Assembly (NCBI GenBank): GCA_001873365.1
Contig: MNYZ01000041.1
Coordinates: forward strand, 1-49,242
Source of the DNA: Oscillatoriales cyanobacterium CG2_30_40_61
Lineage (GTDB): Bacteria > Cyanobacteriota > Cyanobacteriia > Cyanobacteriales > Microcoleaceae
DNA: 49,242 nucleotides
Reading direction: 5' to 3'
Both the position numbers and the translations under genes were made by a program. Position 1 is the stretch's first letter. Each line of letters starts with the position of its first letter. Below the pieces are notes generated by a model. That model did no database searches and was not told the origin of the DNA. It was given only the letters and a program-made list of their open reading frames with translations. Of the stretch, positions 15,149-48,897 are shown in pieces.

Positions 15149-16021
15149 TTATTTATGATATATTTTAACAATAAAATTTATAACCCCTTGGAGTTTATAC
15201 CAAGATTTTTTGGGAGTAATTAAAAGTGTCATTAAACTAATAATAGTTATTCTAAACAACCAATAAAATAGAATAACTTTAGAGGTATGTTTATCAAGAG
15301 TCAGGAGATAACTGTAAATACTATATTGAAGTTTGAGGTTAGGGTTTCTCTGGGTAATGGATGAAGTTTGATGAAATACTTGTATTTGTGGAGTAATCCC
15401 AATTTGATGTCCTTGATTTCGATATCGTAAACAGAAATCAAAATCTTCATAATAAAGGAAATAGTTGGGATCAAATTCAGGACATTCTTTAAAGTTTTTT
15501 AAATTAATTAATAGACTGCATCCCGATACCCATTCTGTTAACTGATAAGGTTCATTTTGCAATGTTTCTGAGAGTTGATTACAGACTTTAATTATGCCTG
15601 TTTTTGGGTTAAATTGTCCTTGTGTAAACTCTAATTGTCCTTTAGAATTGTAAATAACTGTTCCTAAAATAGATAATTCTGGGTAAGATTTAAAGAAATC
15701 AATTGCTGGAGATAGGGCATTTTTAGATAAATACGCATCAGGATTAATTAACCACACAATAGCTTGAGAATCTTGTTGATAAACCCAATTTAACCCCAGA
15801 TTACAAGCTCGACCAAATCCAATATTTTCGGGTGCGTCAAATACTACAATATACGGAGATTGCAACCGATGAATAGAAAGATCATCAGGAGAATTATTAA
15901 TGATAATTACCTGATAATTTATCTCTCGTAGAGACGTTGCATGCAACGTCTCTACGAGAGAATCGATTAACCTTTGAATCAGTTCGGTAGAGTAATAATT
16001 AACCGTTATCCAGTAAATCAC
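15149..16021 (-). CDS. Glycosyltransferase family 2, rhamnosyltransferase-like, with inserted palindrome
   Basis: A GT-A enzyme of 290 aa. It begins IYWITVNYYSTELIQRLIDS. The nucleotide-binding NNSPDD and ENIGFGRACNLGL motifs and the INPDAYL acidic site are present, and the acceptor region has FLYYEDFDFCLRYR (about 192-205), a pattern common in rhamnosyltransferases. The C-terminus (about 245-275) carries a hydrophobic segment that may sit in the membrane. Translation starts at GTG 16021, overlapping the rfbA stop as GTGA, so the two are translationally coupled. Residues about 21-33 (SLVETLHATSLRE) are encoded by a perfect 38-bp palindrome that looks inserted in frame between the first helix and the second strand. 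The frame is intact, so the enzyme may still work. Confidence 0.87.
   Translation of the reverse strand: MIYWITVNYYSTELIQRLIDSLVETLHATSLREINYQVIIINNSPDDLSIHRLQSPYIVVFDAPENIGFGRACNLGLNWVYQQDSQAIVWLINPDAYLSKNALSPAIDFFKSYPELSILGTVIYNSKGQLEFTQGQFNPKTGIIKVCNQLSETLQNEPYQLTEWVSGCSLLINLKNFKECPEFDPNYFLYYEDFDFCLRYRNQGHQIGITPQIQVFHQTSSITQRNPNLKLQYSIYSYLLTLDKHTSKVILFYWLFRITIISLMTLLITPKKSWYKLQGVINFIVKIYHK
15923..15960. repeat. Perfect 38-bp palindrome inside a GT2 gene
   Basis: CTCTCGTAGAGACGTTGCA followed by its exact reverse complement, centred on TGCA. The 28-bp core is the same type as the palindrome at 17125-17152, differing only at the centre. It lies wholly within the coding frame. Confidence 0.9.
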
Positions 16022-17091
16022 GCTAATTCAACTTGACTATCATCTCCAATCATAAATCGCAGGGCTTTAGGTCTTTGAGGTGCGGTACTTAGACTGGCTC
16101 GACGACCAATAACCGTATCCACAATGCGTTGATTAATCCCAATAATTTTAGCTTCACTTAAGATAACACTATGCTCGATTTCAGCATCAATTAAAGTGAC
16201 TTTATTGTCAATACTACTATAGGGGCCAACAAAGCAATTTTCTAAATAGCAATTTTCCCCAATAATCACTGGCCCCCGCACACTACAGTTAACTAATTTT
16301 GTGCCTTGACCAATTTTAACCCGTCCTAAAATATGACTATTTTCGTCTATTTCTACTGCTACATCGTAGGTAATACAGGAATCTAAAATAATTTGATTTG
16401 CACTGAGTAAATCATCTTTTTTTCCTGTATCTAACCACCACCCTTCTAAGGTACAAGCTTCTACACTTTTGCGATCATCAATTAATTGTTGAATTGCATC
16501 GGTAATTTCTAGTTCTCCCCTAGCGGAAGGTTGGATTTTAGCGATCGCATCATGAATAGTTTTATCAAAAAAATAAACCCCAACTAATGCTAGATTTGAG
16601 GGGGGAACTTTAGGCTTTTCAATTAACTTTAAAACCCGTCCTTGATCATCAACAACGGCTACCCCAAAGGCACTGGGATTAGTGACAGTTCGCAGTAAAA
16701 TTAAAGCATCTAGTTGTTGCTGTTTAAACCGCTCAGAAAATTGACTTAGTTGACTTTCAATTAAGTTATCTCCCAAGTACATAATAAAGGGAGAATCTCC
16801 TAAAAACGGTTGACCGACTTTCACCGCATGGGCGAGTCCGGCGGGTTGTTCTTGTAAAATATAGGTAATTTTTGCGCCAAAGCGATCGCCATTTCCGGTT
16901 AAATTTTTAACTTCTTCTCCGGTTTCTGGACTAATAATAATTCCAATTTCTGTAATTCCCGCCGCCACAATTCCTTCAATTCCATACCATAAAATCGGTT
17001 TATTGGCGACGGGAACAAGTTGTTTTGCACCTGTATAGGTTAAAGGGCGTAATCTTGTTCCTTTTCCACCGGAAAGAATTAGTGCTTTCAT
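16018..17091 (-). CDS. rfbA: Glucose-1-phosphate thymidylyltransferase, long form
   Basis: Makes dTDP-glucose (or another NDP-sugar) from sugar 1-phosphate and NTP. The N-terminal nucleotidyltransferase domain shows LSGGKGTRLRPLTYTGAKQL (about 6-25), QEQPAGLAHAV and YLGDNLIE. Unlike the roughly 290-aa RmlA of enteric bacteria, this 357-aa form adds a left-handed beta-helix of hexapeptide repeats (about 245-340), as seen in the archaeal and antibiotic-pathway long form. The stop overlaps the next gene by four bases, and rfbD lies 57 bases upstream across a palindromic repeat. The sugar specificity of the long form is less certain than that of short RmlA, so the gene symbol is by context as well as sequence. 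Confidence 0.88.
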   Translation of the reverse strand: MKALILSGGKGTRLRPLTYTGAKQLVPVANKPILWYGIEGIVAAGITEIGIIISPETGEEVKNLTGNGDRFGAKITYILQEQPAGLAHAVKVGQPFLGDSPFIMYLGDNLIESQLSQFSERFKQQQLDALILLRTVTNPSAFGVAVVDDQGRVLKLIEKPKVPPSNLALVGVYFFDKTIHDAIAKIQPSARGELEITDAIQQLIDDRKSVEACTLEGWWLDTGKKDDLLSANQIILDSCITYDVAVEIDENSHILGRVKIGQGTKLVNCSVRGPVIIGENCYLENCFVGPYSSIDNKVTLIDAEIEHSVILSEAKIIGINQRIVDTVIGRRASLSTAPQRPKALRFMIGDDSQVELA

Positions 17092-17124
17092 AATTAATAG
17101 TTAAGGGTTAATAGAAAACATCCT

Positions 17125-17152
17125 GTAGAGACGTTCCATGGAACGTCTCTAC
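17125..17152. repeat. 28-bp palindrome supplying the rfbD stop codon
   Basis: GTAGAGACGTTCCA followed by its exact reverse complement. Bases 17149-17151 of the right arm read TAG on the minus strand and end rfbD. Related to the palindrome at 15923-15960. Confidence 0.88.
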
Positions 17153-18024
17153 GGTTTTAATTGTTGTAACATTTTTCGCAGTCCTTGTCGCCATTGGGGG
17201 TTATGATTTCCCAAAACATTAGCTAATTTTTTCCCACTTAAAACCGAATAGGCGGGACGACTAGCAGGTGTGGGATATTCGGCTGTTGTAATTGGGATTA
17301 CCCTTTCAATTTTCAGAGGAAAACCTAATAATTTGGCTTCTTCAAAAATTGCGATCGCAAAATCATACCAACTGGTTACACCACTATTAGTACAGTGATA
17401 AATTCCGTAGGTTTGATCATTTAAAAGAGGCATTAATTTAACAATTGATTCTGCTAAATCCCCCGTCCAAGTCGGACTTCCCACTTGATCACTCACCACT
17501 CGAATTTCTTCCCGTTCTTTGCCCAATCGTAACATGGTTTTAACGAAATTTCCGGTTCCACCCACACCATAAACCCAGGCTGTTCTAATAATTGCAAATT
17601 TAGCTTGGGTTGCTTGAATAGCCATTTCTCCGGCTAATTTTGATTCTCCATAAACACCCAAGGGGTGAGTCAAATCAGTTTCAATATAGGGATGGCTTTG
17701 GGTTCCATCGAAGACATAATCCGTGGAAATATGAATCAATGTTGCATCTAATTTTTGACAGCTTTTGGCTAAAATACCGGGTGCAATTCCGTTGATTTTT
17801 AGGGCTAATTCCGGTTCACTTTCTGCCTTATCCACTGCGGTATAAGCGGCAGCATTAATCACCCATTCCGGTTGTATTTTCTCAATTAACCTTGCAATTT
17901 CTTGGGTTTGAGATAAATCAAGGGTATCTCGTCCGACACTCACTAATGACCCCATGGAAGTGAGGAAAGGTTGCAATTCTTGACCTAGTTGACCATCTTT
18001 TCCGATCAGTAAAATGGGTTTCAT
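17149..18024 (-). CDS. rfbD: dTDP-4-dehydrorhamnose reductase
   Basis: Reduces dTDP-4-dehydro-rhamnose with NAD(P)H, the last step to dTDP-L-rhamnose. From ATG 18024 the protein has 291 aa. The NAD(P)-binding LLIGKDGQLGQEL is at 5-17, HISTDYVFDG at 98-107 and the catalytic YxxxK in VYGESKLAGE (Y125, K129). An upstream in-frame ATG at 18105 would add 27 residues that overlap the end of rfbC and match nothing in the family, so I start at 18024. This gives an ATGA overlap with the rfbC stop and tight coupling. The stop codon and final bases derive from the palindrome at 17125-17152, so the C-terminus may be slightly changed. Confidence 0.93.
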   Translation of the reverse strand: MKPILLIGKDGQLGQELQPFLTSMGSLVSVGRDTLDLSQTQEIARLIEKIQPEWVINAAAYTAVDKAESEPELALKINGIAPGILAKSCQKLDATLIHISTDYVFDGTQSHPYIETDLTHPLGVYGESKLAGEMAIQATQAKFAIIRTAWVYGVGGTGNFVKTMLRLGKEREEIRVVSDQVGSPTWTGDLAESIVKLMPLLNDQTYGIYHCTNSGVTSWYDFAIAIFEEAKLLGFPLKIERVIPITTAEYPTPASRPAYSVLSGKKLANVLGNHNPQWRQGLRKMLQQLKP

Positions 18025-18569
18025 GAGAAAAATTCCGCCGTTTTTAAAGGTTGACCCGCTTGATCTTTTGCTGACAAAATCGGTGTAATTCCCTCTAAGG
18101 GCCAATCAATGCCAACATCAGGATCATTCCAAAGCAAAGATCGCTCATAGTTCGGCGCATAATAGTCGGTAGTTTTATATAATACTTCAGCAATATCTGA
18201 AGTTACCAAAAAGCCATGGGCAAATCCAGGTGGAACCCAAAATTGTCGCTTATTTTCTGCACTGAGAATGCAACTCACCCACTGTCCAAAAGTTGGAGAA
18301 CTTTTTCTCATATCTACAGCAACATCAAAAATTTCCCCGGCAACAACACGCAATAATTTACCTTGGGTTTGTTGTATTTGATAATGTAAACCTCTCAAAA
18401 CCCCTTGCACAGAACGGGAATGATTATCCTGTACAAACTCCGAGGTAATGCCTGTTTTTTCGGCAAAATTTTTCTGGTTAAAACTTTCAAAGAAAAAGCC
18501 TCTTTCATCTCCAAAGACCTTGGGTTCAATGATGAAAACATCTGGAATTTTTGTCGGAGTAATAGTCAT
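18021..18569 (-). CDS. rfbC: dTDP-4-dehydrorhamnose 3,5-epimerase
   Basis: Cupin-fold epimerase acting on dTDP-4-dehydro-6-deoxyglucose. At 182 aa it has the normal length. Catalytic signatures are present: GVLRGLHYQ (H62) at 56-64, KLLRVVAGEIFDVAVD (71-86, with K71 and the aspartates), FWVPPGFAHGF (110-120) and YAPNYERSLLWNDPDVGIDW. It is the first gene of the minus-strand dTDP-sugar operon and overlaps rfbD by four bases. The dehydratase rfbB that makes its substrate is not in this window. Confidence 0.95.
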   Translation of the reverse strand: MTITPTKIPDVFIIEPKVFGDERGFFFESFNQKNFAEKTGITSEFVQDNHSRSVQGVLRGLHYQIQQTQGKLLRVVAGEIFDVAVDMRKSSPTFGQWVSCILSAENKRQFWVPPGFAHGFLVTSDIAEVLYKTTDYYAPNYERSLLWNDPDVGIDWPLEGITPILSAKDQAGQPLKTAEFFS

Positions 18570-22438: not shown

Positions 22439-22462
22439 AAATAGTAATTAGTAAACAACAAA

Positions 22463-22531: not shown

Positions 22532-22619
22532 GAAAGAAATAAAATCAAGATTTTTACTCATTGAGAGCAATTGTAACTGCCTCTTAACTCTTAAACTGAT
22601 AACTCTTAAACTGCCAGCC

Positions 22620-22680: not shown

Positions 22681-22729
22681 ACTGATAACTCTTAAACTGA
22701 TAACTGATAACTGGTAACTGATGACTGTA

Positions 22730-26493: not shown

Positions 26494-26538
26494 TGAACTC
26501 TCCAACCGACTTTCACTACCCCGTTCAAATTTACCCTT

Positions 26539-26875: not shown

Positions 26876-28102
26876 ATGAAGTTAAGGTATCGTTACCGAA
26901 TCTATCCAACAGACCAACAAAAGGGGCTGATGTCTCAATTGTTCGGTTGTTGTCGGGTAGTTTTTAACGATGCCTTAGCCTATTGTCAAGAACAATACCG
27001 TGAGGGGAATAAAAAACCTGATAGTAAAGAACTTTCTAAAAGACTTACGGAACTCAAGAAAACTGAGGAAAAGCAATGGTTAACAGAAGTTTCCTCTGTT
27101 CCCTTGCAACAGTCTTTGAGAGATTTGGAGCAGGCTTATTCTAACTTTTTCAAATCCTGTAAAGGACAAAGAAAAGGTAAGAAAGTTAAGCCACCTAGAT
27201 TTAAAAAACGTAAGTCTAAACAGTCTGCTAAGTTCACTGATAATGGCTTTAAAATCCATACCAATTCAGATTACATTCACCTAGCTAAAATTGGTGATAT
27301 TAAAGTAATTTGGAGCAGAGAGCTACCCGCAACGCCTTCGGGTGTTACCCTAATCAAAGATAGTGCTGATAAGTATTTTGTCAGTTTTGTAGTTGAGTTT
27401 AATCCTCAACAATTACCTGAAAATCAAAATTCCGAAGGAATTGATTTAGGAATCACTAATTTTGCCACATTAAGCAACGGCGAAAAAGTGAAATCTCCCA
27501 AACCTTTAAAGAAACAATTAAAGCGTTTAAGGAGATTACAGCAAAATTTGTCAAGAAAACAGAAAGGGAGTAAAAGAAGGGAGGTTGCTAGAAATAAATT
27601 AGCTAGGCTTCACGCTAAGATTTCTGATACCCGAAATGATTTTCTTCATAAACTGTCAACTAAGATTATTCGTGAGAATCAAACAATAGTCTTGGAAGAC
27701 CTAAACGTTTCAGGAATGGTTAAAAACAGAAAATTAGCCCGTGCCATTTCCGATTTAGGTTGGCGCAGTTTCAGGACTATGCTGGAAGCTAAATCAGTAA
27801 TGTACGGGCGTGATTTTAGAGTAATTGATAGATGGACTCCCACTTCTCAAACTTGCTCTTGCTGTGGCTTTAAAGGTGGCAAAAAAGAGTTAAATATTAG
27901 AGAGTGGATTTGCTTAAATTGTGGCACTTTTCACGATAGAGATATTAATGCCGCAGTAAATATTTTAGTCGCCGGAGGGCTTTCGGAGACTCTAAACGGA
28001 CGTGGAGAGAAGGTCAGTCTTTCTGCAAAGAAAGCACATCTCGGCGAAGCGTCAACCCTTCCAGCATTTCAGCAGTTGTCAATTTTTGATCTGCTTAAAT
28101 AG
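26876..28102 (+). CDS. tnpB: TnpB RNA-guided nuclease (OrfB family)
   Basis: Ancestor-type relative of Cas12, cutting DNA under guidance of an RNA read from the element's right end. At 408 aa it has full length. N-terminal helix-turn-helix/OrfB features (LRYRYRIYPTDQQKGLM, GCCRVVFNDAL) are present. The RuvC-like triad looks intact: D190 in GIDLGI, E274 in VLEDLNV and the acid in DRDINAA (D354 or D356). The zinc ribbon has C327-x2-C330 and C346-x2-C349. There are no stops or frameshifts, so the nuclease may be active. It starts at ATG 26876 with the strongly basic MKLRYRYR. Its 3' end overlaps the convergent GT2 gene by eight bases. Confidence 0.93.
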   Translation: MKLRYRYRIYPTDQQKGLMSQLFGCCRVVFNDALAYCQEQYREGNKKPDSKELSKRLTELKKTEEKQWLTEVSSVPLQQSLRDLEQAYSNFFKSCKGQRKGKKVKPPRFKKRKSKQSAKFTDNGFKIHTNSDYIHLAKIGDIKVIWSRELPATPSGVTLIKDSADKYFVSFVVEFNPQQLPENQNSEGIDLGITNFATLSNGEKVKSPKPLKKQLKRLRRLQQNLSRKQKGSKRREVARNKLARLHAKISDTRNDFLHKLSTKIIRENQTIVLEDLNVSGMVKNRKLARAISDLGWRSFRTMLEAKSVMYGRDFRVIDRWTPTSQTCSCCGFKGGKKELNIREWICLNCGTFHDRDINAAVNILVAGGLSETLNGRGEKVSLSAKKAHLGEASTLPAFQQLSIFDLLK

Positions 28103-28139
28103 ATGGAATCCCTGCCCGTTTTACGGCGGGGCGGATGTC
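27990..28139 (+). ncRNA. Candidate omegaRNA (reRNA) at the TnpB 3' end
   Basis: In studied TnpB systems the guide RNA spans the last part of tnpB and the right end, with the guide read from flanking DNA. Here the right end contains the CCTGCCCG/CGGGGCGG hairpin (28111-28134). The guide would begin near 28140 with GT2-derived sequence. Boundaries are inferred. Confidence 0.35.
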
Positions 28140-37401: not shown

Positions 37402-37534
37402 AGGAAAAGGGAACGGGGAATAGGAAACAGGGAATAGGGAATAGGGAATAGGGAATGGGTAATGGGGAATACCAGAATAGGGAATTTTAACTCTTAAACT
37501 GATAACTGGTAACTGATCACTGATCACTGATCAC
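37402..37534. repeat. Compound tandem repeat (GGGAATA, then ACTGATCA units)
   Basis: GGGAATA/GGGAACA-type heptamers fill 37402-37470, followed by ACTGATAACTGGTAACTG and three ACTGATC units (37491-37534). The latter overlap the last codons of the neighbouring minus-strand gene (its end, VISDQ). Confidence 0.85.
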
Positions 37535-39100
37535 TTCGGGTGCTTGACAAACCCAAACGCAATCTCTGGGCACAGATTGATTATCTTTTCGGATAATTTT
37601 ATAGTTAAGATGGGTTAAAAATTTCTCCATAATGGTATCAGTCATTAAGGAAAAAGCGGTTCCATGTCGGTTTCCTAATAGGTTTTTATCCCAATCTTGT
37701 AAGAATTTTTGCCAGCCCAATTCACTTAATAGATTGGTATGATGAAAAATACAGAGGCGATCGCCTTTTAATAAAGCGGGGATGCGAGTTAAATAGTTAA
37801 AAATATCTCGTGGTTCAATATGTACTAAGGTATCATAACAAAAACAAACATCTAGGGATTGGGGTGCAATTCCATCTAGGGTTAAACCATCTAATTTAAC
37901 ATATCTAACCCGTTCATCTCCCAAACGATTGTGGGTGGCATTTAGGAGTTCTTTGGAAATATCAGCACAGACCAAGCGATCGCAATATTTAAGGAGTAAA
38001 GCTGCGGTTTTTCCTCCCCCTACACCAATTTCTAAAACCTGATGCTGCTTCTGAATATAAGGAGCAATAAATTGTTGTTCAATTAGGGCTTCATATTCTG
38101 CCAAGGAAGTCGCTGCACCCGCGGCAAATCCAATCCATTCATCGCCTCTATAAACTTCTTCAGATCTGACACTTTGCCAATTTTTAGCATAGTCATCCCA
38201 GGCGGATTCATAATCAACTTTTTTCATAATTTTAACCGAATTTAAGATAGATTGAGAACGGGTATTTTCCGAAAAATTTAGTAATTCAGCAGTGGATTCA
38301 GAGGGATGATCAGGGATTTCCCAACTCCAATCTTGACCTAAAAATTGTGTCAATTTTTGATTGTAAGGGTGAAAATAGGTTTCTAACTGCTGACGAATAA
38401 TGGGGTTAACATTAGGGTAATTATTGGCATTATATTGATCATAGCTCAATAATTGATAATTTGGTAGTCCTAAAAAATTAAAAACTTGATTGACTACGGT
38501 TTCGGAATCAAAATATAAATCTTCACTCTTGAGAATCAAGAATTGTTGTCGCGGGAAAAACTGCATCCATCTTTGCAATTGATCAATATAAATTCCCCTA
38601 GAAAGGTAAGAATAATGTTGATGATTAAAACTAAAATAAGTGGGATCTGCACCTATTTTTTCGGATTCTCCTTCTAGCCGTTGAGGTTCTTGGGCGATCG
38701 CATCTTCTAAAGATAGAGATTCATGACCTAGTTTTACCTCCCAATAATAATGAGAAATCGCCCGATCTACGGGATTTCTCAATAATACTATAAACCGTGT
38801 TTTAGGAAAAAATTCATACAGTCGTTGGGGCACTAAGGGATGAAATAAATAATAGGGAGAACCTTCACCCGTGAGCAGATATTTTCCATCAGCTTCTGGA
38901 GAAAATTGGGATTTGTACCACTCTAAACCCTGCTGATAATTGAGAGTAAAAAAATGGATTTCCTTTTGGGTAGCCGCTACAATTTGAGGATGTTGACATA
39001 GATACTGATAGAGGGAATTAGTTCCCCCTTTTTGTACCCCAAGAATGATAAACTGGGGCGCAGTGATTGGTGTTAAATCGATTGTCCTAGGTTGTTGCAT
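37517..39100 (-). CDS. Sulfotransferase-methyltransferase fusion
   Basis: The 527-aa protein joins two enzymes. Residues about 15-260 are a PAPS-dependent sulfotransferase of the heparan type. The 5'-phosphosulfate loop is GVQKGGTNSLY (about 21-31), and the 3'-phosphate site is FIVLLRNPVDRAISHYYW (about 103-120). Residues about 290-525 are a class I methyltransferase with VLEIGVGGGK (motif I), ADISKELL and CYDTLVHIEP. It could sulfate and methylate a surface sugar. ATG 39100 is chosen over a TTG three bases upstream; GGAGG lies 16 bases before it. The C-terminal VISDQ comes from tandem repeats. It is divergent from the 39333 gene. Confidence 0.88.
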   Translation of the reverse strand: MQQPRTIDLTPITAPQFIILGVQKGGTNSLYQYLCQHPQIVAATQKEIHFFTLNYQQGLEWYKSQFSPEADGKYLLTGEGSPYYLFHPLVPQRLYEFFPKTRFIVLLRNPVDRAISHYYWEVKLGHESLSLEDAIAQEPQRLEGESEKIGADPTYFSFNHQHYSYLSRGIYIDQLQRWMQFFPRQQFLILKSEDLYFDSETVVNQVFNFLGLPNYQLLSYDQYNANNYPNVNPIIRQQLETYFHPYNQKLTQFLGQDWSWEIPDHPSESTAELLNFSENTRSQSILNSVKIMKKVDYESAWDDYAKNWQSVRSEEVYRGDEWIGFAAGAATSLAEYEALIEQQFIAPYIQKQHQVLEIGVGGGKTAALLLKYCDRLVCADISKELLNATHNRLGDERVRYVKLDGLTLDGIAPQSLDVCFCYDTLVHIEPRDIFNYLTRIPALLKGDRLCIFHHTNLLSELGWQKFLQDWDKNLLGNRHGTAFSLMTDTIMEKFLTHLNYKIIRKDNQSVPRDCVWVCQAPEVISDQ

Positions 39101-39332
39101 CAACGGTAATATACCTCCAAATTAAGAGTTTAATCATCAATAGTGATGATCTCCTATCGATTCAATTTACCTACTGTCCACATTGGGAAAACTCCGTAGG
39201 CAACCACTGAAAAAAACTGAGTAAATTTTAAACTCAATTTAGGATTATACTCTAAAGGGTTAGGGATTTCAGTTATCAATTGACTGAAAATCGAAGATTA
39301 ATTAAGAATTAACTGCTGAGGACATTAGAATT

Positions 39333-40040
39333 ATGACACTCACGGCTGATGCTGAAACACTTTCTCCAATTTATACATTTCGCCGTTTTTTTGCTAACCG
39401 ATATTTACAGGGAAATGGCATTGAAGTCGGAGCCTTAAATCATCCTCTGGAAGTTCCTACATCCGCTCAGGTTAAATATGTAGATCGGATGAGTGTTCCT
39501 GATTTAAAAGAACATTATCCTAATTTAGCAGATGTTGATTTAGTTGCTGTCGATATTATCGATAATGGTGAATTTCTAGGAACACTTGAGAATGAAACCC
39601 AGGATTTTGTGATTGCAAATCATTTTATTGAACATTGCCAAAACCCGATTTTAACCATTGAAAATTTATTACGGGTGATTAAAAAAGACGGGATTTTGTA
39701 TTTAGCGGTTCCCGAAAAACGAACTTGTTTTGATTGCGATCGCCCAGTCACTTCTATTGAACATTTATTAAAAGATTATCAACAGGGCCCGGAATGGTCT
39801 CGACAAAATCATTATGAAGAATGGATTGAATTAGTAGAAAAAGAAACGGATGAAACCAAAGCAAAATGGATGGTTAAAGAATTGATGAGACGGGATTTTA
39901 GTATCCATTTTCATGTCTGGACATCTGCGGATTTTGTGGATTTTCTTTTAACCTTAAAACACCAACTTGGGTTTCCTTTTAATTTAGAAAAGATTTTTGA
40001 TAATGGCAATGAACTGATCACAATTATCAGAAAAGTATAG
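39333..40040 (+). CDS. SAM-dependent methyltransferase-like protein
   Basis: The 235-aa protein is like those in which a class I methyltransferase core (Methyltransf_11 type) is found beside glycosyltransferase genes. The N-terminal NGIEVGALNHPLEVP (about 28-42) is in the place of motif I. VDLVAVDIID follows, then FVIANHFIEHCQNPI (motif IV-like), NLLRVIKKDGILYLAVPEK (motif V-like) and the C-terminal IHFHVWTSADFVDFL. The IEHCQNP and VPEKRTCFDCDR motifs are common in cyanobacterial sugar-modifying methyltransferases. The substrate is unknown. It is alone on the plus strand, divergent from the sulfotransferase fusion across 232 bases. Confidence 0.75.
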   Translation: MTLTADAETLSPIYTFRRFFANRYLQGNGIEVGALNHPLEVPTSAQVKYVDRMSVPDLKEHYPNLADVDLVAVDIIDNGEFLGTLENETQDFVIANHFIEHCQNPILTIENLLRVIKKDGILYLAVPEKRTCFDCDRPVTSIEHLLKDYQQGPEWSRQNHYEEWIELVEKETDETKAKWMVKELMRRDFSIHFHVWTSADFVDFLLTLKHQLGFPFNLEKIFDNGNELITIIRKV

Positions 40041-40210: not shown

Positions 40211-43200
40211 TCAAAAGCGTTTGGGACGCAATACACACAAACAGAAATCCGATTCTAAACCCCCCGGAATTTCCATTAATATTTGTTCAAATTCCAACAA
40301 AAGTTTAATTAAGGTTTCGCCTTTGGGATCACCGGGTAAACATTGATTATGATCTAATAAAGGATACAGAGGATGAAGAATTGCGCCCCCAAACGGATTA
40401 AATAGTTCGATATCAAAATAATACTCAATAAAGGGTAAAATCAGTTGGGAACGAACAGCCTCTGAGGGGTCAGTGGCAAAAACTTGATGGATACTGGGAT
40501 TAATAAATTTATTTTCCATAATCCCAGAACGAATTAATTTATGGAAACATTGGTATAGGCGGTTAATTAGTTCTACCTGGCGTTTATTGTAAATGCAATA
40601 ATTAGCCCCTACATATTCATTAATAATGAAATATCCCTGGGGATGTAACGCCTTATGAACCATTTCTAAAAAACGTTCTAGTTCCCGAACGTGATGCAGA
40701 GAACCGGAACAAAATGCCACATCATATTTAACGTCTGGATTTAGGTTAAAGGTATTAAAATCTTCTTGATAGAAATTAACCTGAACTCCAGCTTTTTCGG
40801 CATCTTTTCGGGCAATTTCTAAGGAGGATTCCGAAAAATCAAAGGCATCAATATGTTGAGCAAATCCCAATTCTGCCATCAAAATTTCGTGATTTCCAAT
40901 ACCACATCCCAGGGAAATTAGGTGATTAAAGTTTTGACCTGCAAAATAATCTTGAATTAACCACCGTAACCAATATTTTTTAGTTTGACCTCCAGACATT
41001 CGTTGATGGATAGTATCCGCAATAATTGGATTAGAAACCCATTGACTAGCGGCGGCGTTAGGATTGGTTTCCCAATAATTCTTGGCTTGAGGTTCGGCAA
41101 TTTCCGGCTCTGGATGATGGATTTCAACGGCGGGAATCGTAACCGGAGAAGGAGGGTTTATCTGAATCTCTAAGGAATTAGTAAATAGGGGATTAGAAGC
41201 CGGATTGGGATTAATAAAATAGGCTTCTTGAAAGATTTCTAAATAACTTTGGGTCATTTCCTCAAAGGTATTTAGAGACTCCAAAACATACTGGGAATTT
41301 TGAGCAAATTCCTGTCTTAAATCCGGGTTTTCTAGCAATGATGTTAAACATTTTGCTAATTCTTCCGGTTGGTGGGGAGTATAAAATAAACCATTAATTT
41401 CAGGACGCACCTGTTCAGGAATTCCAAATACGGGAGTAGTGATAATTGGTAGGTTATATCCCATGGCTTCCATAATCACTCTGGGATAACTTTCAATCCG
41501 AGAAGTACAGACGAAAATATCCGCAGCTAGGAAGTATTGGGCGGTTTCTGGGGTTTCTGGAACTAGGGTTAATCGCTGTTTTAAAGACTCGGGAAGTTGG
41601 GCTTTTAATTGAGCTAATTCGGTACTATAAATACTAGGGCGATCGCCAACAATAAAACAACGAATTTTCTGGTAATATTGGGGTGATAATAGGGGTAATG
41701 CTTCGAGTAAATCCTTTTGTCCTTTGCGTTCACAAACCGTTCCCAGTAACAAAATAACGATTTCATCTTCTGCTATTGATAAGGTGGTTCTGGCTTCAAT
41801 TCGAGTTAGCTGTTCTGATGTTTTTAGTAACCTTTGAATATCTAAACCATTATGAATCACCGTAAAGTTGTGATGACTATTTAAAGAGTGATAAAGATTT
41901 CGGGTTGCATCCGCAACAAAAATCACCCGATAGGGAAATTGAAAACACTCTAAGGCTCGGGCTGCAATTTCTGATCCCAATCCATTAAAATAGGTTTGCC
42001 AAGCCTGACTTTCATGGATATTCCAAATACAAGGAATTGATTTTTGTTGAGCACAATCAACCATAAAAAAGGTTTCTAAAGTATTAGCATAAACCAGATC
42101 AAATTGTTCTATTTGGAGTTCATTTGCTAATCTTTCAATAGCAGTATTATACGCTTCTTGTTGATAAATATTAGCCAGGGGATGTTCCCGAACAATTACT
42201 CTAATTCCCTGCTGTTCATAGGCATAGCGTAACGGCCCATCATCAACACAGAAAATCGTCGGTTCTAGTTTTCCTTCGGCGGCTAACTTAACAGCAATTT
42301 CAAATTGATGTAAGGGTGCGCCCGTATATTCTAAGGCATTACTGCACATTAAAATCTTAGGAATCGGGGCAGAATTAGTAGTTGATTTTAATTGATAGCG
42401 TCGAGGTTGAATTTGGAACCATTCATTATCTAAGGATAAATGAGGATTATAAAAAGGATCAATTTTATCGGCATATTGGCGACGGAATTTTGCCACTTCT
42501 TTCGGGTCATCTTTATAACCCCGACTGGTTCCTTCTCGGTGAATTAATTCTGCTTCCGGGCAATAAACCGATTGATAACCTTTTTCAAATAATCGATATC
42601 CATAATCAACATCATTGTAAGCAACGGCAAAATCAACTTGATTAAATCCCCCTAAATCTAAGAACAATTGTCGGGGTGTTAATAAACAAGCCGCCGTCAC
42701 CGCCGAATAATTTCTTACAACTTTAGAATAGGCTAAATAACCGAAATCTTGACGATGGGTTAACTTAAAAGCATGACCCGCTAAACCATGATGAAGTCCA
42801 TGCAAAATTCCAGCGTGTTGAATCCGGTCATCGGGATAAATTAACCGCGCCCCGACCGCCCCTACGCCTACGATGCGAGCATAGCCCATCATCTGAGTTA
42901 ACCAATGGGAATTAATCACTTCTGTGTCATTATTCAGGAATAATACATAATCCGTATTCACCTGTTCCACCGCCCGATTATTAATCGCAGCAAAGTTGAA
43001 TTTTCCTTGATTAGCTATTTTTAAAACCGATATTTTTTCGGTGTCACTAATTTTCTTGAAATACTCTAGGGTTTTGGGGTCATCGCTTTCGTTGTCAATA
43101 ATCACAACCTGATAATTTTGATAGGTTGTTTTCTGAATTGATTCTACACAAGCCTGGAGTAATTTAAGTTGATTTTTAGTCGGAATAATAATTGTTACCG

Positions 43201-46200
43201 ACGGCCCCTGGTCGGGGAATTGATGATAAAAAATTCCTAGGTTAAGTTCACTAGCCCAATTCGGCTGATAAACTTTTCCTAAACTTTGAAGACGGGTTAA
43301 TGCTTCTTGAATTGCGTGTTTTCCGGCATCAAAACTGGCGGGTTTTGCCGCTCCAGAAACCGCCGTTGAGCCGGGGGCTGTACGCCAATGGTAGAGGACT
43401 AAAGGAATATGACCAATCTGGCGAGAAATTTCCGTGGCTCTGAGGGCAAAATCATAATCCTGTGACCCTTCAAATCCAATTCTAAATCCCCCTAATTTCT
43501 CAAAAATTGCTCGTCTAACTACTAACAAATGCCCCATATACATATAGGAAAGCAAGAGTTGGGGCGACCAATCGGGCTTAAATTGGGGAGCAAATCTTTT
43601 GCCTTCTGGGTCAATTTTATCGTCATCGGAATAGAGAAAATCGGTTTCAGGATATTGAATTAAATATAATCCCATTTCCCCTAAAGCATCCGGGGTTAAT
43701 TCGTCATCGTTATCTAAAAAGGCAACAAATTCCCCGGTAGCTTGACTGGCTGCACTATTGGTAGCCGCGCTAATATTGCCATTTTCCGTACGGAAATAGA
43801 CTTTAATTCGAGCATCTTTGGCTGCATATTCAGTTAATAATTCTACAACTTGGGTATCGGTACTACAATCATCGGCAATACATAATTCCCAATTAGCATA
43901 AACTTGATTAACCACACTTTGAATCGCTTTTTCTAAGAATTCAATCGGGGGGTTATAAACGGGCATAACCACTGAAATTTTAGGCAATATTTCTGGCGAA
44001 TAAACCGTTAATCGAGTTTTTAAAGACTCCAAACTCCTTTCCGTCCATTGATTGGCGGCTAACCAAGCCTGATAGGGTTCAATTGGTTGTAGTAATTCAA
44101 AGCCTTGGGGCGGTAAAAAATCCCCCTGGGGAACGGTTGTTTGCCGATACATTAGGCTCATTTGCCGCAGAATTGCCGGAATTTCCCAAGGCATGGGTAG
44201 GAGACGACCTAAACGCTGTTTCCGTTCTTTTATGCGTTTCTGAATCGCCGCCGTATAACGAGAAACTTGTTTGATTTTTGCGGTGCTTTTTTCTAATAGT
44301 CCATAGCGGGAAACTTGTAAGATTTGAGGACAGTTATAAATCAGAATTTCCCCACTTTCTAAATGGGCTTCCAAACTAATTTCCCAAGTTCCCGGGGGTA
44401 AATCAATTAAGGCTTCAAACCCACTTTCGGCGCTTCCTATCCAATTGGGAAAAACCTGCCCCACATCGACACGACGTAACCCATAGGCACAAATCACCCA
44501 TTGATTTCCATAGATTAATTTTAATTGTGTAATGCGTTGATTTGGATGGCAACACCACCCGGCAAATAGAATTTGTCCTTGTCGTTGTTCCCACTGTGAG
44601 GGCACATCAAAGGACGCTCTCAAACTAGAAACCGTTAAAGGATAACGGGCAAATACCGTCCATTTTCCGTTACTATCTTGGGCCTCTAATTCTACTAAGG
44701 AATTGCCTTGAGGAACGCGAATTTGCAGATAGAATCCTGATAATTTTGCTTGGGGATAAACTGCATGAATATCCGCCACATCTTGACGTTCAATGCCATA
44801 TTCTCCGGTAAAAATATCCGTTCCTATTTTAGCTCTCACCTGTTTTATCTCTTGATTTCCAGTATGAAAACACCAACCGGAAATATTTAAGAATTTCTCG
44901 GTAAATCCCGTTAATTCCCAATTCAAGGGAAAATCTAGGGAGTAAATAAATCGACGGCGGAATTGTTTTAAACGCCGTTTAGCACCTAGCCATTTTCCTC
45001 GCAGTTTCCAAAATTTAGAAGACTGCATGGCAATAATTTCTCTTTGGGCTTTACCCAATTCATCTTCTAAACTGAATATTTTATTTAAGGCTTGTTCAAA
45101 TTGAGATTCTGCTCCGAATAATTTCAGTTGGGTGCGACCTAATTCATTTTCTAAGGTTAAGAGTTTGGTCAGTCCATCTTGATATTGAACGCTAACAACT
45201 TGTAGTTTAAATTCCGTTTTTTCTAGGGCGGTTTCTGATTCCAAACATCGAGCTAATATTTCTTGATATTTAGCATCTAAAGCTTTATATTTAGTCTCGA
45301 TATCTTGATATTGGGCAATTATATCTTGATAGTTGCCCTGGGTTTTACCTAATTCTATTTCTGTGGTAACGAGTTTATCTACCGCCTGTTCAAATTGGGT
45401 TTTAAACCCTTCTAATTCTGCTTGAGTTTTGCCTAATTCTGCTTCGGTAGAGATTAACTTGGTTATGGCTTCCTCGGCTTTAACTTCTACACCACTGAGT
45501 TTTAATTGAGTTTCACCTAGGAGATTTTCGGTTTTAATTAAACGTTCAACGGCATCTTGAAAGCGTTCTTGCCATTCTTGAATATCTTTTTGTAAAATAT
45601 CTCTATCTTTGAGCAAAATATCTAAATCTTTTGCTAGAATAGACTGATTTTTTTCTAATTTTCTAAGTTGTGCCCAATCCTCAAATACCCAATCGGCAGA
45701 TAAAGGTTGATTCAAACTCTCTAATTCCGATGCCGTTAAATGGCTATTCAATGGGTAAGCAGTGGTTTCTAAAGTTTGATAGAGTTCAATGGCTTCGGGA
45801 AAATAGGCTTTAATAAACAGGGGTTTGGGAGTCGCCAAAATTCGGTTTACTAATAATGACGGTTCAAATTGATTGGAAAATTCACCCTGTAAATTAAGAT
45901 TAAATTTATGATTAATTTCGTTAATAAAATCAGCAGTTTGATTGCCAATTGTATAAATATTTGCTAACAGACAATTGTCGGGATATTGATGATAAAATTC
46001 TAAAATTTTACGGTTATAATGGCTCCACATTTGGATAGCAATTTCAGGATGATCTAATAAAGTCGCATCCGTTGCCCGACGATACAAAGAATCAATTACT
46101 TCCCAGGGAGAACGATAGACAAAAATAAACTTAGCCTGGGGTAATAATTGATGCCAAAAGTCCAAAAACAAAGTAGTTCTAGGATCTTTCCATCCCCAGA

Positions 46201-46510
46201 CTGAAGACGAATCTTGATTAATTTCAATCAGTTTTTTAGCGGTTTCTATCTCTGGTTCTGTGAGGGAGATTTCCCCTGAGAATACACACCCCAATTCATC
46301 AATATTATGGCTCTTAAAAACAGATTTGTGAAAGTCTACAAAATCAACATTTTCAAAATGACCTTTAATATTGCCATAGTCTGCACCGACTAACTGTTTA
46401 CCAATATTAACCCCTAGATTTTGCAGCAGAGAAGCTGTTAAAGAGGTTCCCGAGCGGTGCATTCCGGCAATGATAATAATGGGAGAGGAGGTATTCGTTG
46501 TATCCATCAT
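40211..46510 (-). CDS. Giant multidomain sulfotransferase-glycosyltransferase-methyltransferase
   Basis: One intact frame of 2099 aa. Order of domains: sulfotransferase-like (about 11-230; AGMHRSGTSL at 15-24 and FVYRSPWEVIDSL at 130-142); coiled coil with repeated ELGKTQ units (about 285-495), ending SSKFWKLRGKW; two similar beta domains (about 540-625 and 640-735); GT2 (845-1050; VVMPVYNPP, LDNDDE); a second GT2 (1104-1330; IIIPTKN, LNNDTEV); GT4 (1385-1770; E-x7-E at 1673-1681); class I methyltransferase (1845-2085; ISLGCGIGNHE, CSGSLHHV). It starts 40 bases after the Wzt-like gene, in the same operon. It probably builds, and perhaps caps, the glycan exported by Wzm-Wzt. No signal peptide is seen, so it acts at the cytoplasmic face. 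Which sugars are made is unknown. Confidence 0.92.
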   Translation of the reverse strand: MMDTTNTSSPIIIIAGMHRSGTSLTASLLQNLGVNIGKQLVGADYGNIKGHFENVDFVDFHKSVFKSHNIDELGCVFSGEISLTEPEIETAKKLIEINQDSSSVWGWKDPRTTLFLDFWHQLLPQAKFIFVYRSPWEVIDSLYRRATDATLLDHPEIAIQMWSHYNRKILEFYHQYPDNCLLANIYTIGNQTADFINEINHKFNLNLQGEFSNQFEPSLLVNRILATPKPLFIKAYFPEAIELYQTLETTAYPLNSHLTASELESLNQPLSADWVFEDWAQLRKLEKNQSILAKDLDILLKDRDILQKDIQEWQERFQDAVERLIKTENLLGETQLKLSGVEVKAEEAITKLISTEAELGKTQAELEGFKTQFEQAVDKLVTTEIELGKTQGNYQDIIAQYQDIETKYKALDAKYQEILARCLESETALEKTEFKLQVVSVQYQDGLTKLLTLENELGRTQLKLFGAESQFEQALNKIFSLEDELGKAQREIIAMQSSKFWKLRGKWLGAKRRLKQFRRRFIYSLDFPLNWELTGFTEKFLNISGWCFHTGNQEIKQVRAKIGTDIFTGEYGIERQDVADIHAVYPQAKLSGFYLQIRVPQGNSLVELEAQDSNGKWTVFARYPLTVSSLRASFDVPSQWEQRQGQILFAGWCCHPNQRITQLKLIYGNQWVICAYGLRRVDVGQVFPNWIGSAESGFEALIDLPPGTWEISLEAHLESGEILIYNCPQILQVSRYGLLEKSTAKIKQVSRYTAAIQKRIKERKQRLGRLLPMPWEIPAILRQMSLMYRQTTVPQGDFLPPQGFELLQPIEPYQAWLAANQWTERSLESLKTRLTVYSPEILPKISVVMPVYNPPIEFLEKAIQSVVNQVYANWELCIADDCSTDTQVVELLTEYAAKDARIKVYFRTENGNISAATNSAASQATGEFVAFLDNDDELTPDALGEMGLYLIQYPETDFLYSDDDKIDPEGKRFAPQFKPDWSPQLLLSYMYMGHLLVVRRAIFEKLGGFRIGFEGSQDYDFALRATEISRQIGHIPLVLYHWRTAPGSTAVSGAAKPASFDAGKHAIQEALTRLQSLGKVYQPNWASELNLGIFYHQFPDQGPSVTIIIPTKNQLKLLQACVESIQKTTYQNYQVVIIDNESDDPKTLEYFKKISDTEKISVLKIANQGKFNFAAINNRAVEQVNTDYVLFLNNDTEVINSHWLTQMMGYARIVGVGAVGARLIYPDDRIQHAGILHGLHHGLAGHAFKLTHRQDFGYLAYSKVVRNYSAVTAACLLTPRQLFLDLGGFNQVDFAVAYNDVDYGYRLFEKGYQSVYCPEAELIHREGTSRGYKDDPKEVAKFRRQYADKIDPFYNPHLSLDNEWFQIQPRRYQLKSTTNSAPIPKILMCSNALEYTGAPLHQFEIAVKLAAEGKLEPTIFCVDDGPLRYAYEQQGIRVIVREHPLANIYQQEAYNTAIERLANELQIEQFDLVYANTLETFFMVDCAQQKSIPCIWNIHESQAWQTYFNGLGSEIAARALECFQFPYRVIFVADATRNLYHSLNSHHNFTVIHNGLDIQRLLKTSEQLTRIEARTTLSIAEDEIVILLLGTVCERKGQKDLLEALPLLSPQYYQKIRCFIVGDRPSIYSTELAQLKAQLPESLKQRLTLVPETPETAQYFLAADIFVCTSRIESYPRVIMEAMGYNLPIITTPVFGIPEQVRPEINGLFYTPHQPEELAKCLTSLLENPDLRQEFAQNSQYVLESLNTFEEMTQSYLEIFQEAYFINPNPASNPLFTNSLEIQINPPSPVTIPAVEIHHPEPEIAEPQAKNYWETNPNAAASQWVSNPIIADTIHQRMSGGQTKKYWLRWLIQDYFAGQNFNHLISLGCGIGNHEILMAELGFAQHIDAFDFSESSLEIARKDAEKAGVQVNFYQEDFNTFNLNPDVKYDVAFCSGSLHHVRELERFLEMVHKALHPQGYFIINEYVGANYCIYNKRQVELINRLYQCFHKLIRSGIMENKFINPSIHQVFATDPSEAVRSQLILPFIEYYFDIELFNPFGGAILHPLYPLLDHNQCLPGDPKGETLIKLLLEFEQILMEIPGGLESDFCLCVLRPKRF

Positions 46511-46550
46511 GTTCTTAGGGTTTTATTTCAGCTTGAATCAACAACAATAT

Positions 46551-47972
46551 TTAAAGACATTCTAGTTCAGATACCTTCTGAACTAAACCGGACTTGATTT
46601 TTAAACTGGGTTCAATTAATAAGTCCACCACTCCGGTACTACAAGAATCTTCATAGGGTTGAACTCGGAACATCCCGACATCAATACAGCGATCTAAATA
46701 GGTAAATTCACCCTCCACAATACCAGAAACCCCGGCATTCAGGAAATAAACATCCGGTGATAATTGACATTCAAACTTAAATTTGATCGTCATTGTTGTT
46801 CCCGGTTCAATCTGTTTGATTGATTGAGAAGTGGCTAAAAAGGAAGCTCCAGCTAGTTCAAATCCACTTACGGTTTTAATTAACATTCCAAAACGAACAT
46901 GGGAGGCAAGTTTATCAAATTTCACGGAATAGGTGTAAATATAACTATTTCGAGCTACTAAATGATTAACCATTTCCCCCGCCAAGGTGGTAATATGGGG
47001 TTCTAAAATTTCTGCCCCCCGGGAAGGATATTTAATCGGATGATCAGGAACTAATTTAGGATCAAAATAATCTTTATAATGTCCATTATTTGATTTGAAA
47101 GTAGGTAGAACTGATGGAGATGCCGGATTTTCAGGATGAAAATTATTCGATTTAGACGATTCTAAAGGCTGTTCAACCGGCTGGGAAGATTTATGGTTTA
47201 AATGTTGAATTTCCTCGCGAATCATGATCATTTGATCGGCATCGGCATAGATCATTTTTTGATATTTGGAAATGATCATTTTTGGGGTATGTTCGAGTAA
47301 TAATTCTCCCCGATCCATTAACACCGCCGAGTCGCAAAGTTGAATAATTGAAGGAGCAGAATGGGAAACAAATAAAATTGTGCCACCCCGATCTTTAATT
47401 TCATGAATTCGACTAAAACATTTGCGTTGAAAGGCTTCATCTCCGACGGATAGGGCTTCATCCACAATTAAAATATCAGGATCAACACTGGTAGCTACCG
47501 CAAATCCTAAACGAACATACATCCCACTGGAATAGGTTTTGACGGGTTGATCAATAAAATCTCCAATATCCGCAAAGGCAAGAATATCATCAAATTTGGC
47601 TTCAATTTCCTGGGTTTTTAATCCCAATAATTGACCATTGAAAAATACATTTTGTCGCCCGGTAAATTCAGGATTAAACCCGCTACCGAGTTCTAATAAT
47701 GCTGAAACTCGACCATTAACTTCCACATTCCCTTGAGTTGGGGTTAAAGTTCCGACAATAATTTGTAATAGGGTACTTTTTCCCGAACCATTGCGCCCAA
47801 CAACTCCTAAAGTTTGGCCTTTCCAAACTTGTAAATTAATATCTTGCAATGCCCAAAAATTATGGGCCAGACTTTTTCCGGGCACAAAAATTTCCTTCAA
47901 TCTATCCACCGGATGGCGATAACGTTTGAAGCATTTAGAGACGTGATTAACGGATATAGCTATTTCGGTCAT
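46551..47972 (-). CDS. wzt: ABC glycan-export ATPase (Wzt-like) with C-terminal carbohydrate-binding-like domain
   Basis: Energises export of a lipid-linked polysaccharide. The ATPase half (1-245) has Walker A GRNGSGKST (59-67), the signature YSSGMYVRL (147-155) and Walker B DILIVDE (166-172). A linker of about 50 residues, rich in Ser, Pro and Asn, follows. Residues about 300-470 form a beta-rich domain (YSVKFDKLASHVRFGMLIKT, YFLNAGVSG) like the Wzt C-terminal domain of E. coli O8/O9a, which recognises the finished glycan end. At 473 aa it is longer than KpsT/TagH-type ATPases, which lack this part. It lies 67 bases after the permease and 40 before the giant enzyme. Confidence 0.92.
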   Translation of the reverse strand: MTEIAISVNHVSKCFKRYRHPVDRLKEIFVPGKSLAHNFWALQDINLQVWKGQTLGVVGRNGSGKSTLLQIIVGTLTPTQGNVEVNGRVSALLELGSGFNPEFTGRQNVFFNGQLLGLKTQEIEAKFDDILAFADIGDFIDQPVKTYSSGMYVRLGFAVATSVDPDILIVDEALSVGDEAFQRKCFSRIHEIKDRGGTILFVSHSAPSIIQLCDSAVLMDRGELLLEHTPKMIISKYQKMIYADADQMIMIREEIQHLNHKSSQPVEQPLESSKSNNFHPENPASPSVLPTFKSNNGHYKDYFDPKLVPDHPIKYPSRGAEILEPHITTLAGEMVNHLVARNSYIYTYSVKFDKLASHVRFGMLIKTVSGFELAGASFLATSQSIKQIEPGTTMTIKFKFECQLSPDVYFLNAGVSGIVEGEFTYLDRCIDVGMFRVQPYEDSCSTGVVDLLIEPSLKIKSGLVQKVSELECL

Positions 47973-48039
47973 TCGATGTTGATTTCGGTGGTTTATCAGT
48001 GATCAGTTAGCGTGTGTTTTGTGTGAGGAACTGTCACTT

Positions 48040-48897
48040 TTATAAAACGTCAGCAAAGGCTGGACGCAACCGCCTATAAACCCCTAGGCCCACACAAAAT
48101 ATAACCAAGGCGAATATTGAGGATACGGCTAATTCTCCCCAATGTCTCATTTCCCCAACTAAAATTAAATCTCGATAGGCTTCTGAAAGTCCAGTAATAG
48201 GATTACACCAAACAATCCAAAATTGCCAGGATTCAGGAACTTTAGCAACAGGATATAAAATCGGCGTCACATAAAACCAAAGGTTCAAAATTACGCCTAA
48301 ACTCTGGGGAATATCCCGCAAAAATACAGTTAGTCCGGATGTTAAATAGCCTAACCCGGCTGTTAATAAAAGTTGGGGTATCCAGACTAAGGGCAGTAAC
48401 CACAGGGTGGGGTGCATGACTTGAGTGGACAAGGCGGTTAACCCAATTAGAGCCACTAAGCCAAAGGAACTTTCAATAAATGCTGAAAAAATTGGGACGA
48501 GGGGCAATAGTCCCAGGGGAAAAACCACTTTTTTAACTAAATTTGTCTGTCCTACTACGGAATTGGCGGCTTGAATTAATCCATTTGTGAAGGCAAACCA
48601 AGGAATTAAACCCGCAAATAGCCACAGGCCAAAGGCTAATTCGTTATCGGGAAAACCCTCAAGATTGAGTTTGACCTTGAGAACAATAGAAAAAACGTAG
48701 GTATAAATCAGCAGTTGGGACAACTGATTCAATAGAGGCCAGAGGTTGCCAAGAATAGAACCTTTGTATCGTGCCTCTAAGTCCCTTCGGACTAATGTAC
48801 TAAGCAGATTCAGTTTGAGGGATAATCGGCTATTGACAAGCGACCATTGACTCCCACGCCCCGAAGTTCTGACAAAACCCTTGATTGACCGCAGCAA
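48040..48897 (-). CDS. wzm: ABC-2-type glycan-export permease (Wzm-like)
   Basis: Membrane channel partner of the Wzt-like ATPase. The 285 aa have the standard ABC-2 layout. A cytoplasmic N-terminal helix carries LVRRDLEARYKGSILGNLWPLL (positions about 36-57), the family signature. About six membrane helices follow (YTYVFSIVLKV, FGLWLFAGLIPWFAF, LGLLPLVPIFSAFI, and others), and the late FYVTPILYPV...WCNPITGLSEAYRDLIL motif is present. The start appears to be TTG 48897, eight to nine bases after GAGGA; no ATG lies nearby in frame. It is the first gene of the wzm-wzt-giant operon. The substrate is inferred to be a surface polysaccharide. Confidence 0.92.
   Translation of the reverse strand: MLRSIKGFVRTSGRGSQWSLVNSRLSLKLNLLSTLVRRDLEARYKGSILGNLWPLLNQLSQLLIYTYVFSIVLKVKLNLEGFPDNELAFGLWLFAGLIPWFAFTNGLIQAANSVVGQTNLVKKVVFPLGLLPLVPIFSAFIESSFGLVALIGLTALSTQVMHPTLWLLPLVWIPQLLLTAGLGYLTSGLTVFLRDIPQSLGVILNLWFYVTPILYPVAKVPESWQFWIVWCNPITGLSEAYRDLILVGEMRHWGELAVSSIFALVIFCVGLGVYRRLRPAFADVL

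Follow-up and report, generated by a model that had tools for sequence, protein, structure and literature searches.

Enzymes that couple chain modification to a coiled coil are known from several systems, which are cited here from excerpts of the respective papers. WbdD of Escherichia coli O9a carries a methyltransferase (MT), a kinase and a coiled coil (PMC3482155). In Klebsiella, the O12 protein WbbB and the O7 protein ORF6 fuse an N-terminal terminator, a coiled coil and C-terminal glycosyltransferases (GTs), an added domain of Wzt reads the cap in the WbbB system, and cyanobacterial orthologues of the N-terminal part of ORF6 are mentioned by the authors (PMC11231755). The DNA analysed here (the window, 49,242 nucleotides) is contig MNYZ01000041.1 of Oscillatoriales cyanobacterium CG2_30_40_61, one whole contig of a 4.8-Mb genome, and encodes a large fusion protein with an N-terminal sulfotransferase (ST) beside the exporter proteins Wzm and Wzt. 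The host is a filamentous, bloom-forming cyanobacterium. The fusion protein is proposed to be a single-chain polymerase, ruler and terminator for a glycan exported by Wzm-Wzt, probably rhamnose-based, with sulfate as cap and export tag; confidence in this reading is evenly balanced.

Domains of the fusion protein

An intact 6.3-kb frame beside Wzm-Wzt had been described in the initial annotation, and this was confirmed. The modules named there (ST, coiled coil, two GT2, GT4 and MT) were recovered by Pfam and heptad analysis, while two immunoglobulin (Ig)-like domains and a basic helix had been missed. The features of the locus are as follows.

40211..46510 (-), fusion protein with ST, coiled coil, basic helix, two Ig-like domains, GT2, GT2, GT4 and MT; open frame of 2099 amino acids, Pfam, whole in 8 congeneric genomes
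45707..46510 (-), N-terminal ST domain, residues 1-268, candidate chain terminator
45023..45649 (-), coiled coil, residues 288-496 (209 amino acids), candidate ruler; 7- and 28-residue periodicity, 21-bp tandem repeats in the DNA
44939..45022 (-), basic helix (SSKFWKLRGKWLGAKRRLKQFRRRF...), candidate membrane-binding segment; conserved in A1, charge and hydrophobic moment
44621..44938 (-), Ig-like domain B1, residues 525-630; AlphaFold model, beta-sandwich
44291..44620 (-), Ig-like domain B2, residues 631-740
43256..43981 (-), first GT2 domain, residues 844-1085; Pfam PF00535, chondroitin synthase 2z87_A at E 8.4e-20
42401..43228 (-), second GT2 domain, residues 1095-1370; Pfam PF00535/PF13641
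41171..42373 (-), GT4 domain, residues 1380-1780; Pfam PF13439 and PF00534
40214..41068 (-), C-terminal S-adenosylmethionine methyltransferase (MT), residues 1815-2099; Pfam PF13847, separate gene in some other genera
46551..47972 (-), Wzt ATPase with C-terminal glycan-binding domain (46620-47030); ABC_tran and Wzt_C
48040..48897 (-), Wzm permease; PF01061

The Pfam spans in the fusion were Sulfotransfer_3 (residues 10-178), GT2 (846-1006 and near 1103-1329), GT4 (1397-1739) and Methyltransf_31 (1864-1980), and the MT part contained LGCGIG at residue 1867, presumably a cofactor-site motif. The N-terminal domain carried GMHRSGTS at 16, WGWKDPR at 105 and YR-x7-S at 132, which are taken here to be the cofactor-site motifs (5' phosphosulfate loop and 3' phosphate site). 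Residues H18, R19, S20, G21, S23, W107, K108, P110, R111, R133 and S141 were invariant in 35 aligned sequences, and fold comparison agreed with Pfam in giving the domain a sulfotransferase fold. By motif and fold, the domain is predicted to be a sulfotransferase of the 3'-phosphoadenosine-5'-phosphosulfate (PAPS) type that would transfer sulfate to a sugar. The GT2-GT2-GT4 part (844-1780), across the coil from the ST, may act as the chain polymerase. In the E. coli and Klebsiella systems the terminator occupies the N-terminal slot, on the opposite side of the coil from the polymerase GTs (PMC11231755), which makes the ST a candidate terminator here.

The coiled coil that had been placed at about 285-495 proved real, with 47 of 60 a/d positions hydrophobic, a contrast reached by none of 5000 shuffles. 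The coil was also self-similar with periods of 7 and 28 residues; when it was shifted by 28 residues its identity to itself was 0.26, which 0/5000 shuffles reached. A coiled coil rises 0.1485 nm per residue; the 209 residues of the window coil thus correspond to about 31 nm, and the coils across species to about 22-66 nm. Coil lengths were counted in 70 frames with ST and B1, which gave 48 distinct coils free of X. The coil end motif was required to start with S or A (two cases shifted by one residue), and sequences were dropped only if X lay inside the coil, as in L097 (312 amino acids, class 4). A length of 6 modulo 7 was found for 47 of the 48 coils and for 13 of the 14 distinct lengths, over a range of 146-447 residues (36/38 and then 42/45 in earlier passes, before the final anchor and X rules), the coil of L045 (177 residues) being a real exception. 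As a control, the GT2b-GT4 spacings in 47 proteins were spread (26 distinct values, no class with more than 7), although these spacings rest on edges of hidden Markov models and are noisier than the coil anchors. Coil length therefore appears free to vary, but almost only in register-preserving steps. Such steps would fit a continuous rod under selection, and the characterised relatives suggest that the rod may act as a ruler. In L107 (11402-11869), an 84-bp tandem unit of 5.6 copies with 90% match encodes 28-residue coil units and is a likely hot spot for change of ruler length. The coil detector was a heuristic of our own, which also flags short amphipathic helices.

The basic helix directly follows the coil, with a net charge of +7 to +9 per 18 residues and a hydrophobic moment of 0.24-0.42; by analogy with WbdD it may bind the membrane. 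Two tandem Ig-like domains (about 525-740) lie between this helix and the first GT2. The AlphaFold model of residues 512-762 (mean predicted local distance difference test score 87.5) was a beta-sandwich, and fold comparison of the region matched mostly Ig-like and Fn3-like domains. A PDB sequence search with a profile of residues 1-843 returned coiled-coil proteins and two weak sulfotransferases and gave no match for the Ig-like region. Carbohydrate binding is a candidate role for these domains.

Conservation of the fusion and linkage of Wzt to the sulfotransferase

The full fusion was present in 8 of 9 other genomes of the genus (Planktothrix), the ninth being interrupted by a contig end (3118-base contig), so that an assembly artefact or chance fusion was ruled out. 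The named relatives by sequence, which put the window genome within Planktothrix or beside it, include P. paucivesiculata PCC 9631, Planktothrix sp. PCC 11201 and P. rubescens PCC 7821. All eight congeneric loci with enough sequence had the full fusion adjoining Wzm-Wzt, and the order ST-coil-Ig-Ig-GT2-GT2-GT4 was common in other genera (Microcoleus, Tychonema, Okeania, Trichodesmium and others), with GT4 or ST sometimes a separate frame. When the ST domain was searched against 59 genomes, the own one among them, 48 had matches, and 26 of 40 examined loci had ST, Ig-like B2 and GT2a together in one frame. In other genera, a B1-B2-GT2a frame occurred in 41 named loci; here the MT was fused after GT4 in 3 (L089; L096, Arthrospira sp. 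PCC 9108; and L100, Lyngbya aestuarii, where the ST is a separate gene) and was a separate gene in 13; it was unseen in the available stretch of the other 25, several of which end at contig ends. The separate standing of MT, GT4 or ST in other genera suggests that the fusion probably grew by addition of modules to a Wzm-Wzt-ST core.

Upstream of the fusion frame and on its strand lie Wzt, 40 bp away, and Wzm, which is separated from Wzt by 67 bp. This spacing and the conserved gene order support the earlier proposal that the three genes form one operon. The glycan-binding-like C-terminal domain ascribed to the ATPase was borne out by Wzt_C (PF14524), which scored 82.8 bits against a cut-off of 30.4 (E 3e-23) and had no other match in the genome. 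Across the 59 genomes, 70 Wzt_C places were found in 51 genomes. ST-linked loci had supplied the sequences for the WztC and ST profiles, so the association was assessed from a tree rather than by how the profiles scored. The tree contained the C-terminal parts of 62 of the 70 places (eight were left out), and a Wzt was labelled ST-linked when an ST gene above 100 bits lay within 10 kb on the same strand. This gave 37 ST-linked rows, 22 without ST and 3 left unjudged because their contigs stop within 1.5 kb. One clade of 38 rows, with a Shimodaira-Hasegawa-like approximate likelihood ratio (SH-aLRT) support of 99, held 35 ST-linked rows, including that of the window, and the 3 unjudged rows. 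All 22 Wzts scored without ST fell outside this clade, as did the ST-linked L138 and L155, both on long branches. The linkage label changed twice on the tree, against a shuffled mean of 18.1. Since 35 of the 37 ST-linked Wzts fall in one clade, the association is long-lasting and does not reflect many independent gains.

The ST gene came next after wzt in 13 of 36 ST-linked loci, after one gene in 19 and after two or three in 4. Five of the 36 (L139, L140, L144, L146 and L147, of which L146 ends 2.9 kb after wzt) had no GT2a-like polymerase above 150 bits, which indicates that the Wzt-ST pairing can outlast exchange of the polymerase. In a phylum-wide sample of 292 genomes, 33 had ST and 75 had Wzt_C, the ST counts being lower bounds as at most 8 candidates per genome were scored. 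There, 24 of 42 ST matches had a Wzt_C match no more than 10 kb away, whereas random placement would give 0.21; of the 24 linked genomes, 16 were already in the first set and 8 were new. Unusually long Wzt proteins (678-690 amino acids) with a C-terminal part outside the ST clade and no ST nearby were observed in L152, L169 and L170. Near a Wzt without ST, L163 (8839-11862) encodes a 1007-amino-acid protein with about 740 residues scored as coil by the heuristic, perhaps another type of terminator.

A different methyltransferase gene stood between wzt and the ST gene in many other loci. The 46 such frames in named loci were 285-1091 amino acids long (some cut), and a coil was detected in 40 of them. 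Planktothrix has no methyltransferase gene at this place. Nine of the ten genomes of the genus carry a homologue at another position, and the remaining genome is 73% complete. The copy in the own genome had 389 amino acids and no coil, and the other Planktothrix copies were open frames of 378-393 amino acids. Two genomes of the Arthrospira genus carry a further homologue besides the operon copy, so the Planktothrix gene probably corresponds to this further homologue. In L064, a methyltransferase, an ST and a coil occurred in one protein, an arrangement that would resemble WbdD with a sulfotransferase in place of the kinase. A PDB search with this protein gave no match at E 0.01, and thus no support for kinship of its methyltransferase with that of WbdD.

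Proposed mechanism and competing explanations

In the proposed mechanism, the GT2-GT2-GT4 part at the membrane end would extend a lipid-linked chain, with the basic helix keeping this polymerase end at the membrane. The coil would hold the ST about 31 nm away, and sulfation at the free end would be limited to chains long enough to reach it. Sulfation would end chain growth, the C-terminal domain of Wzt would recognise the sulfated end for export, and the C-terminal MT, beside the polymerase, may methylate residues during growth. A wider proposal is offered tentatively, at a little less than even confidence. Under it, sulfate would be a further terminator chemistry of ABC-exported bacterial glycans: an ST at the coil tip would add the cap, Wzt C-domains of a dedicated clade would read it, and length would evolve by whole heptads, partly as 28-residue repeats are gained or lost; Wzt-ST would then be a portable cap-reader module used with various polymerases across cyanobacteria and perhaps beyond.

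Several observations weigh against sulfate as a cap set by a ruler. Known cyanobacterial sulfated polysaccharides are taken to bear sulfate along the chain. The congeneric loci L056-L058 (G008, G003 and G002) encode a paralogue of about 1600 amino acids, ST-GT2-GT2-GT4, with no coil between ST and GTs; its GT2 domains were 67-68% identical to those of the window fusion, and no Wzt was found in the 18 kb examined around it. Other ST-coil proteins lay away from any full-length Wzt (L062-L067 and L069). One of them is the own genome's second ST-coil protein (L062, 4388-6637, coil at about 267-653); the 15 kb examined there contained no Wzt. These coil-less paralogues and Wzt-less ST-coil proteins mean that coil and exporter are not necessary partners of the ST family or of the polymerase. 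A weak GT2 match lay between ST and coil in L059, and in three of the 36 ST-linked loci (L140, L146 and L167) the frame with the ST had no coil downstream of it. In L061 (Arthrospira sp. PCC 9108) the ST region was split into two frames, 6983-7348 and 7300-13257, and it is open in the congener L042. The Wzt-ST association is one clade, mostly of shared descent and not many independent events; the tree search was quick and short and gave warnings of long branches, and for 5 of the 22 loci scored without ST the downstream sequence covered only 5-10 kb. In the phylum-wide sample, 18 of 42 ST matches were unlinked to Wzt_C. The O-antigen of Aeromonas salmonicida has no detected sulfate despite the sulfotransferase ORF19, which counts against a general rule (PMC4483657, excerpt).

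The strongest rival is that the ST sulfates along the growing chain to give a sulfated, O-methylated rhamnan of calcium-spirulan type, with the coil as an oligomerising scaffold and length set otherwise. It is a real possibility, though held well below even confidence, and the present data do not separate it from capping. The genes of the window that bear on this question are as follows.

16018..18569 (-), RmlA, RmlD and RmlC in a row (dTDP-L-rhamnose supply); NCBIfam TIGR01208, TIGR01214 and TIGR01221 above cut-off
37517..39103 (-), second sulfotransferase (Sulfotransfer_1) fused to a methyltransferase, 528 amino acids; Pfam

According to excerpts of the literature, cyanobacterial ATP-binding cassette (ABC)-type clusters contain sulfotransferase genes, and one such cluster is suggested as the source of the sulfated capsule of A. 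platensis (Maeda et al. 2021, PMC8205485); spirulan has rhamnose, 3-O-methylrhamnose and sulfate (PMC8004682; also PMC11395459). Arthrospira sp. PCC 9108 has the locus (L096), with ST split over two frames, and rmlA, rmlC and rmlD lie on the window contig. The O-chain of Oscillatoria planktothrix FP1 is reported with 3-substituted alpha-L-rhamnose (PMC4515613, excerpt), and this together with the rml genes makes a rhamnan plausible as the exported glycan, the rml genes being possibly linked to the fusion in this way. The coil-less paralogue, which puts the ST directly beside the GTs, strengthens internal sulfation and the explanation without any cap, and weakens terminal capping. It would, however, be difficult to account for an enzyme that acts on every repeat sitting at the tip of a rod of about 22-66 nm that varies only by whole heptads. 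The second sulfotransferase (37517-39103; also in L033, L049 and L064) could add internal sulfate instead, as a possible modifier of the same glycan, and one clade of Wzt C-domains goes with the ST.

The initial annotation had left the cap as sulfation or methylation. By position the ST would be the better candidate, and methylation as the cap fared poorly. A terminating MT with the ST as accessory, which would resemble the 2-O-methyl cap that WsaE of Geobacillus, with an MT and two rhamnosyltransferases, is held to make (PMC2943079, excerpt), is given very little probability. A different MT does precede the ST in many other loci, but the MT of the fusion sits at the polymerase end and not across the coil, and it is rarely fused in other genera (3/41), so a capping role is unlikely. 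Equally improbable is a large multidomain glycosyltransferase with decorating enzymes, without cap or ruler and with Wzt_C reading the backbone. The window genome has several large frames in which GT2 matches more than once, and these frames and the paralogues without coil or Wzt speak for it, but a coil length locked to heptads over a threefold range and the Wzt-ST pairing across genera do not fit it.

If terminal sulfation is true, it would join the short list of known chain-terminating reactions and explain why a sulfotransferase gene closely follows wzt in many cyanobacterial loci. The coils, at about 22 to 66 nm, would form a natural series of rulers with which the molecular-ruler model could be tested in different species, and the locus would offer a genetic handle on cyanobacterial surface glycans, those of Arthrospira included.

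Other genes were observed on the contig and in the genome. The rmlA-rmlD-rmlC genes adjoin GT2 (15149-16021) and GT4 (14034-15107) genes. In L049 and L064 the Sulfotransfer_1 gene stands on its own, and a small gene close by looks MT-like on visual inspection. A 235-amino-acid methyltransferase (39333-40040, opposite strand) adjoins the fusion in all eight congeneric loci. A type-1-secretion-like set (20564-26505, 13116-13847 and 33765-35765) comprised an ABC exporter with Peptidase_C39 and cyclic nucleotide (cNMP)-binding domains, an HlyD-like protein, a peptidyl-prolyl isomerase (PPIase) and two RTX-repeat proteins. An IS605 OrfB-type transposase (26876-28102) adjoins a double-GT2 gene (28095-30719), and the own genome has a 2780-amino-acid open frame with three GT2 matches (G000:C20:16274-18637).

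Comparison with described systems

As far as the excerpts of the cited papers go, each described system shares part of this architecture. WbdD of E. coli O9a has its modifying enzymes N-terminal to the coil and an ABC exporter as partner, so that the N-terminal half has the same order as in the window and the earlier statement that the order differs did not hold; it differs in that the polymerase WbdA is a separate protein and the cap is methylphosphate (PMC3482155). WbbB of K. pneumoniae O12 is likewise one polypeptide of terminator, coil and polymerase GTs used with Wzm-Wzt, but its terminator is a transferase of 3-deoxy-D-manno-oct-2-ulosonic acid (Kdo), and the excerpt describes no sulfotransferase or MT (PMC11231755). 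ORF6 of K. pneumoniae O7 has N-terminal modifying enzymes, an Ig-like domain, a coil and GT2 as in the window, but its terminator is a methyltransferase-kinase making a methylphosphate cap, and its Ig-like domain, similar to a carbohydrate-binding module (CBM), follows the kinase and precedes the coil and two GT2, whereas both Ig-like domains of the window follow the coil (PMC11231755). The word sulfotransferase is absent from that paper.

WsaE of Geobacillus stearothermophilus also fuses an MT and two rhamnosyltransferases beside wzm-wzt; its MT is N-terminal, no sulfotransferase is described in the excerpt, and length control is ascribed to an unknown extra factor (PMC2943079). The A. salmonicida cluster gives the closest hint in print of a sulfotransferase in the terminator slot: its ORF19 lies between wzt and wbbB, but it is a separate 216-amino-acid protein left unexplained by the authors (PMC4483657). 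Maeda et al. 2021 found their sulfotransferases in cyanobacterial ABC-type polysaccharide clusters by Pfam search and read these as sulfated-polysaccharide clusters in general; the words coiled and Wzt are absent from the main text (PMC8205485). No published sulfotransferase acting as chain terminator was found in the open literature searched, most subscription papers lying outside it.

With WbdD, WbbB and ORF6 the window protein shares an N-terminal modifying enzyme on a long coil, GTs at the other coil end, and a linked Wzm-Wzt with a glycan-binding C-domain. The chemistry of the N-terminal enzyme differs from the methyl, methylphosphate and Kdo terminators of the compared systems. Because this domain is a sulfotransferase, the protein is better regarded as a variant that would work like WbdD, WbbB and ORF6 than as a plain member of their group. 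The arrangement is thus not wholly new, as had been suggested, since WbbB and ORF6 already fuse terminator, coil and GTs (PMC11231755). The fusion of terminator, ruler and polymerase was already known, and a sulfotransferase in the terminator slot looks new.

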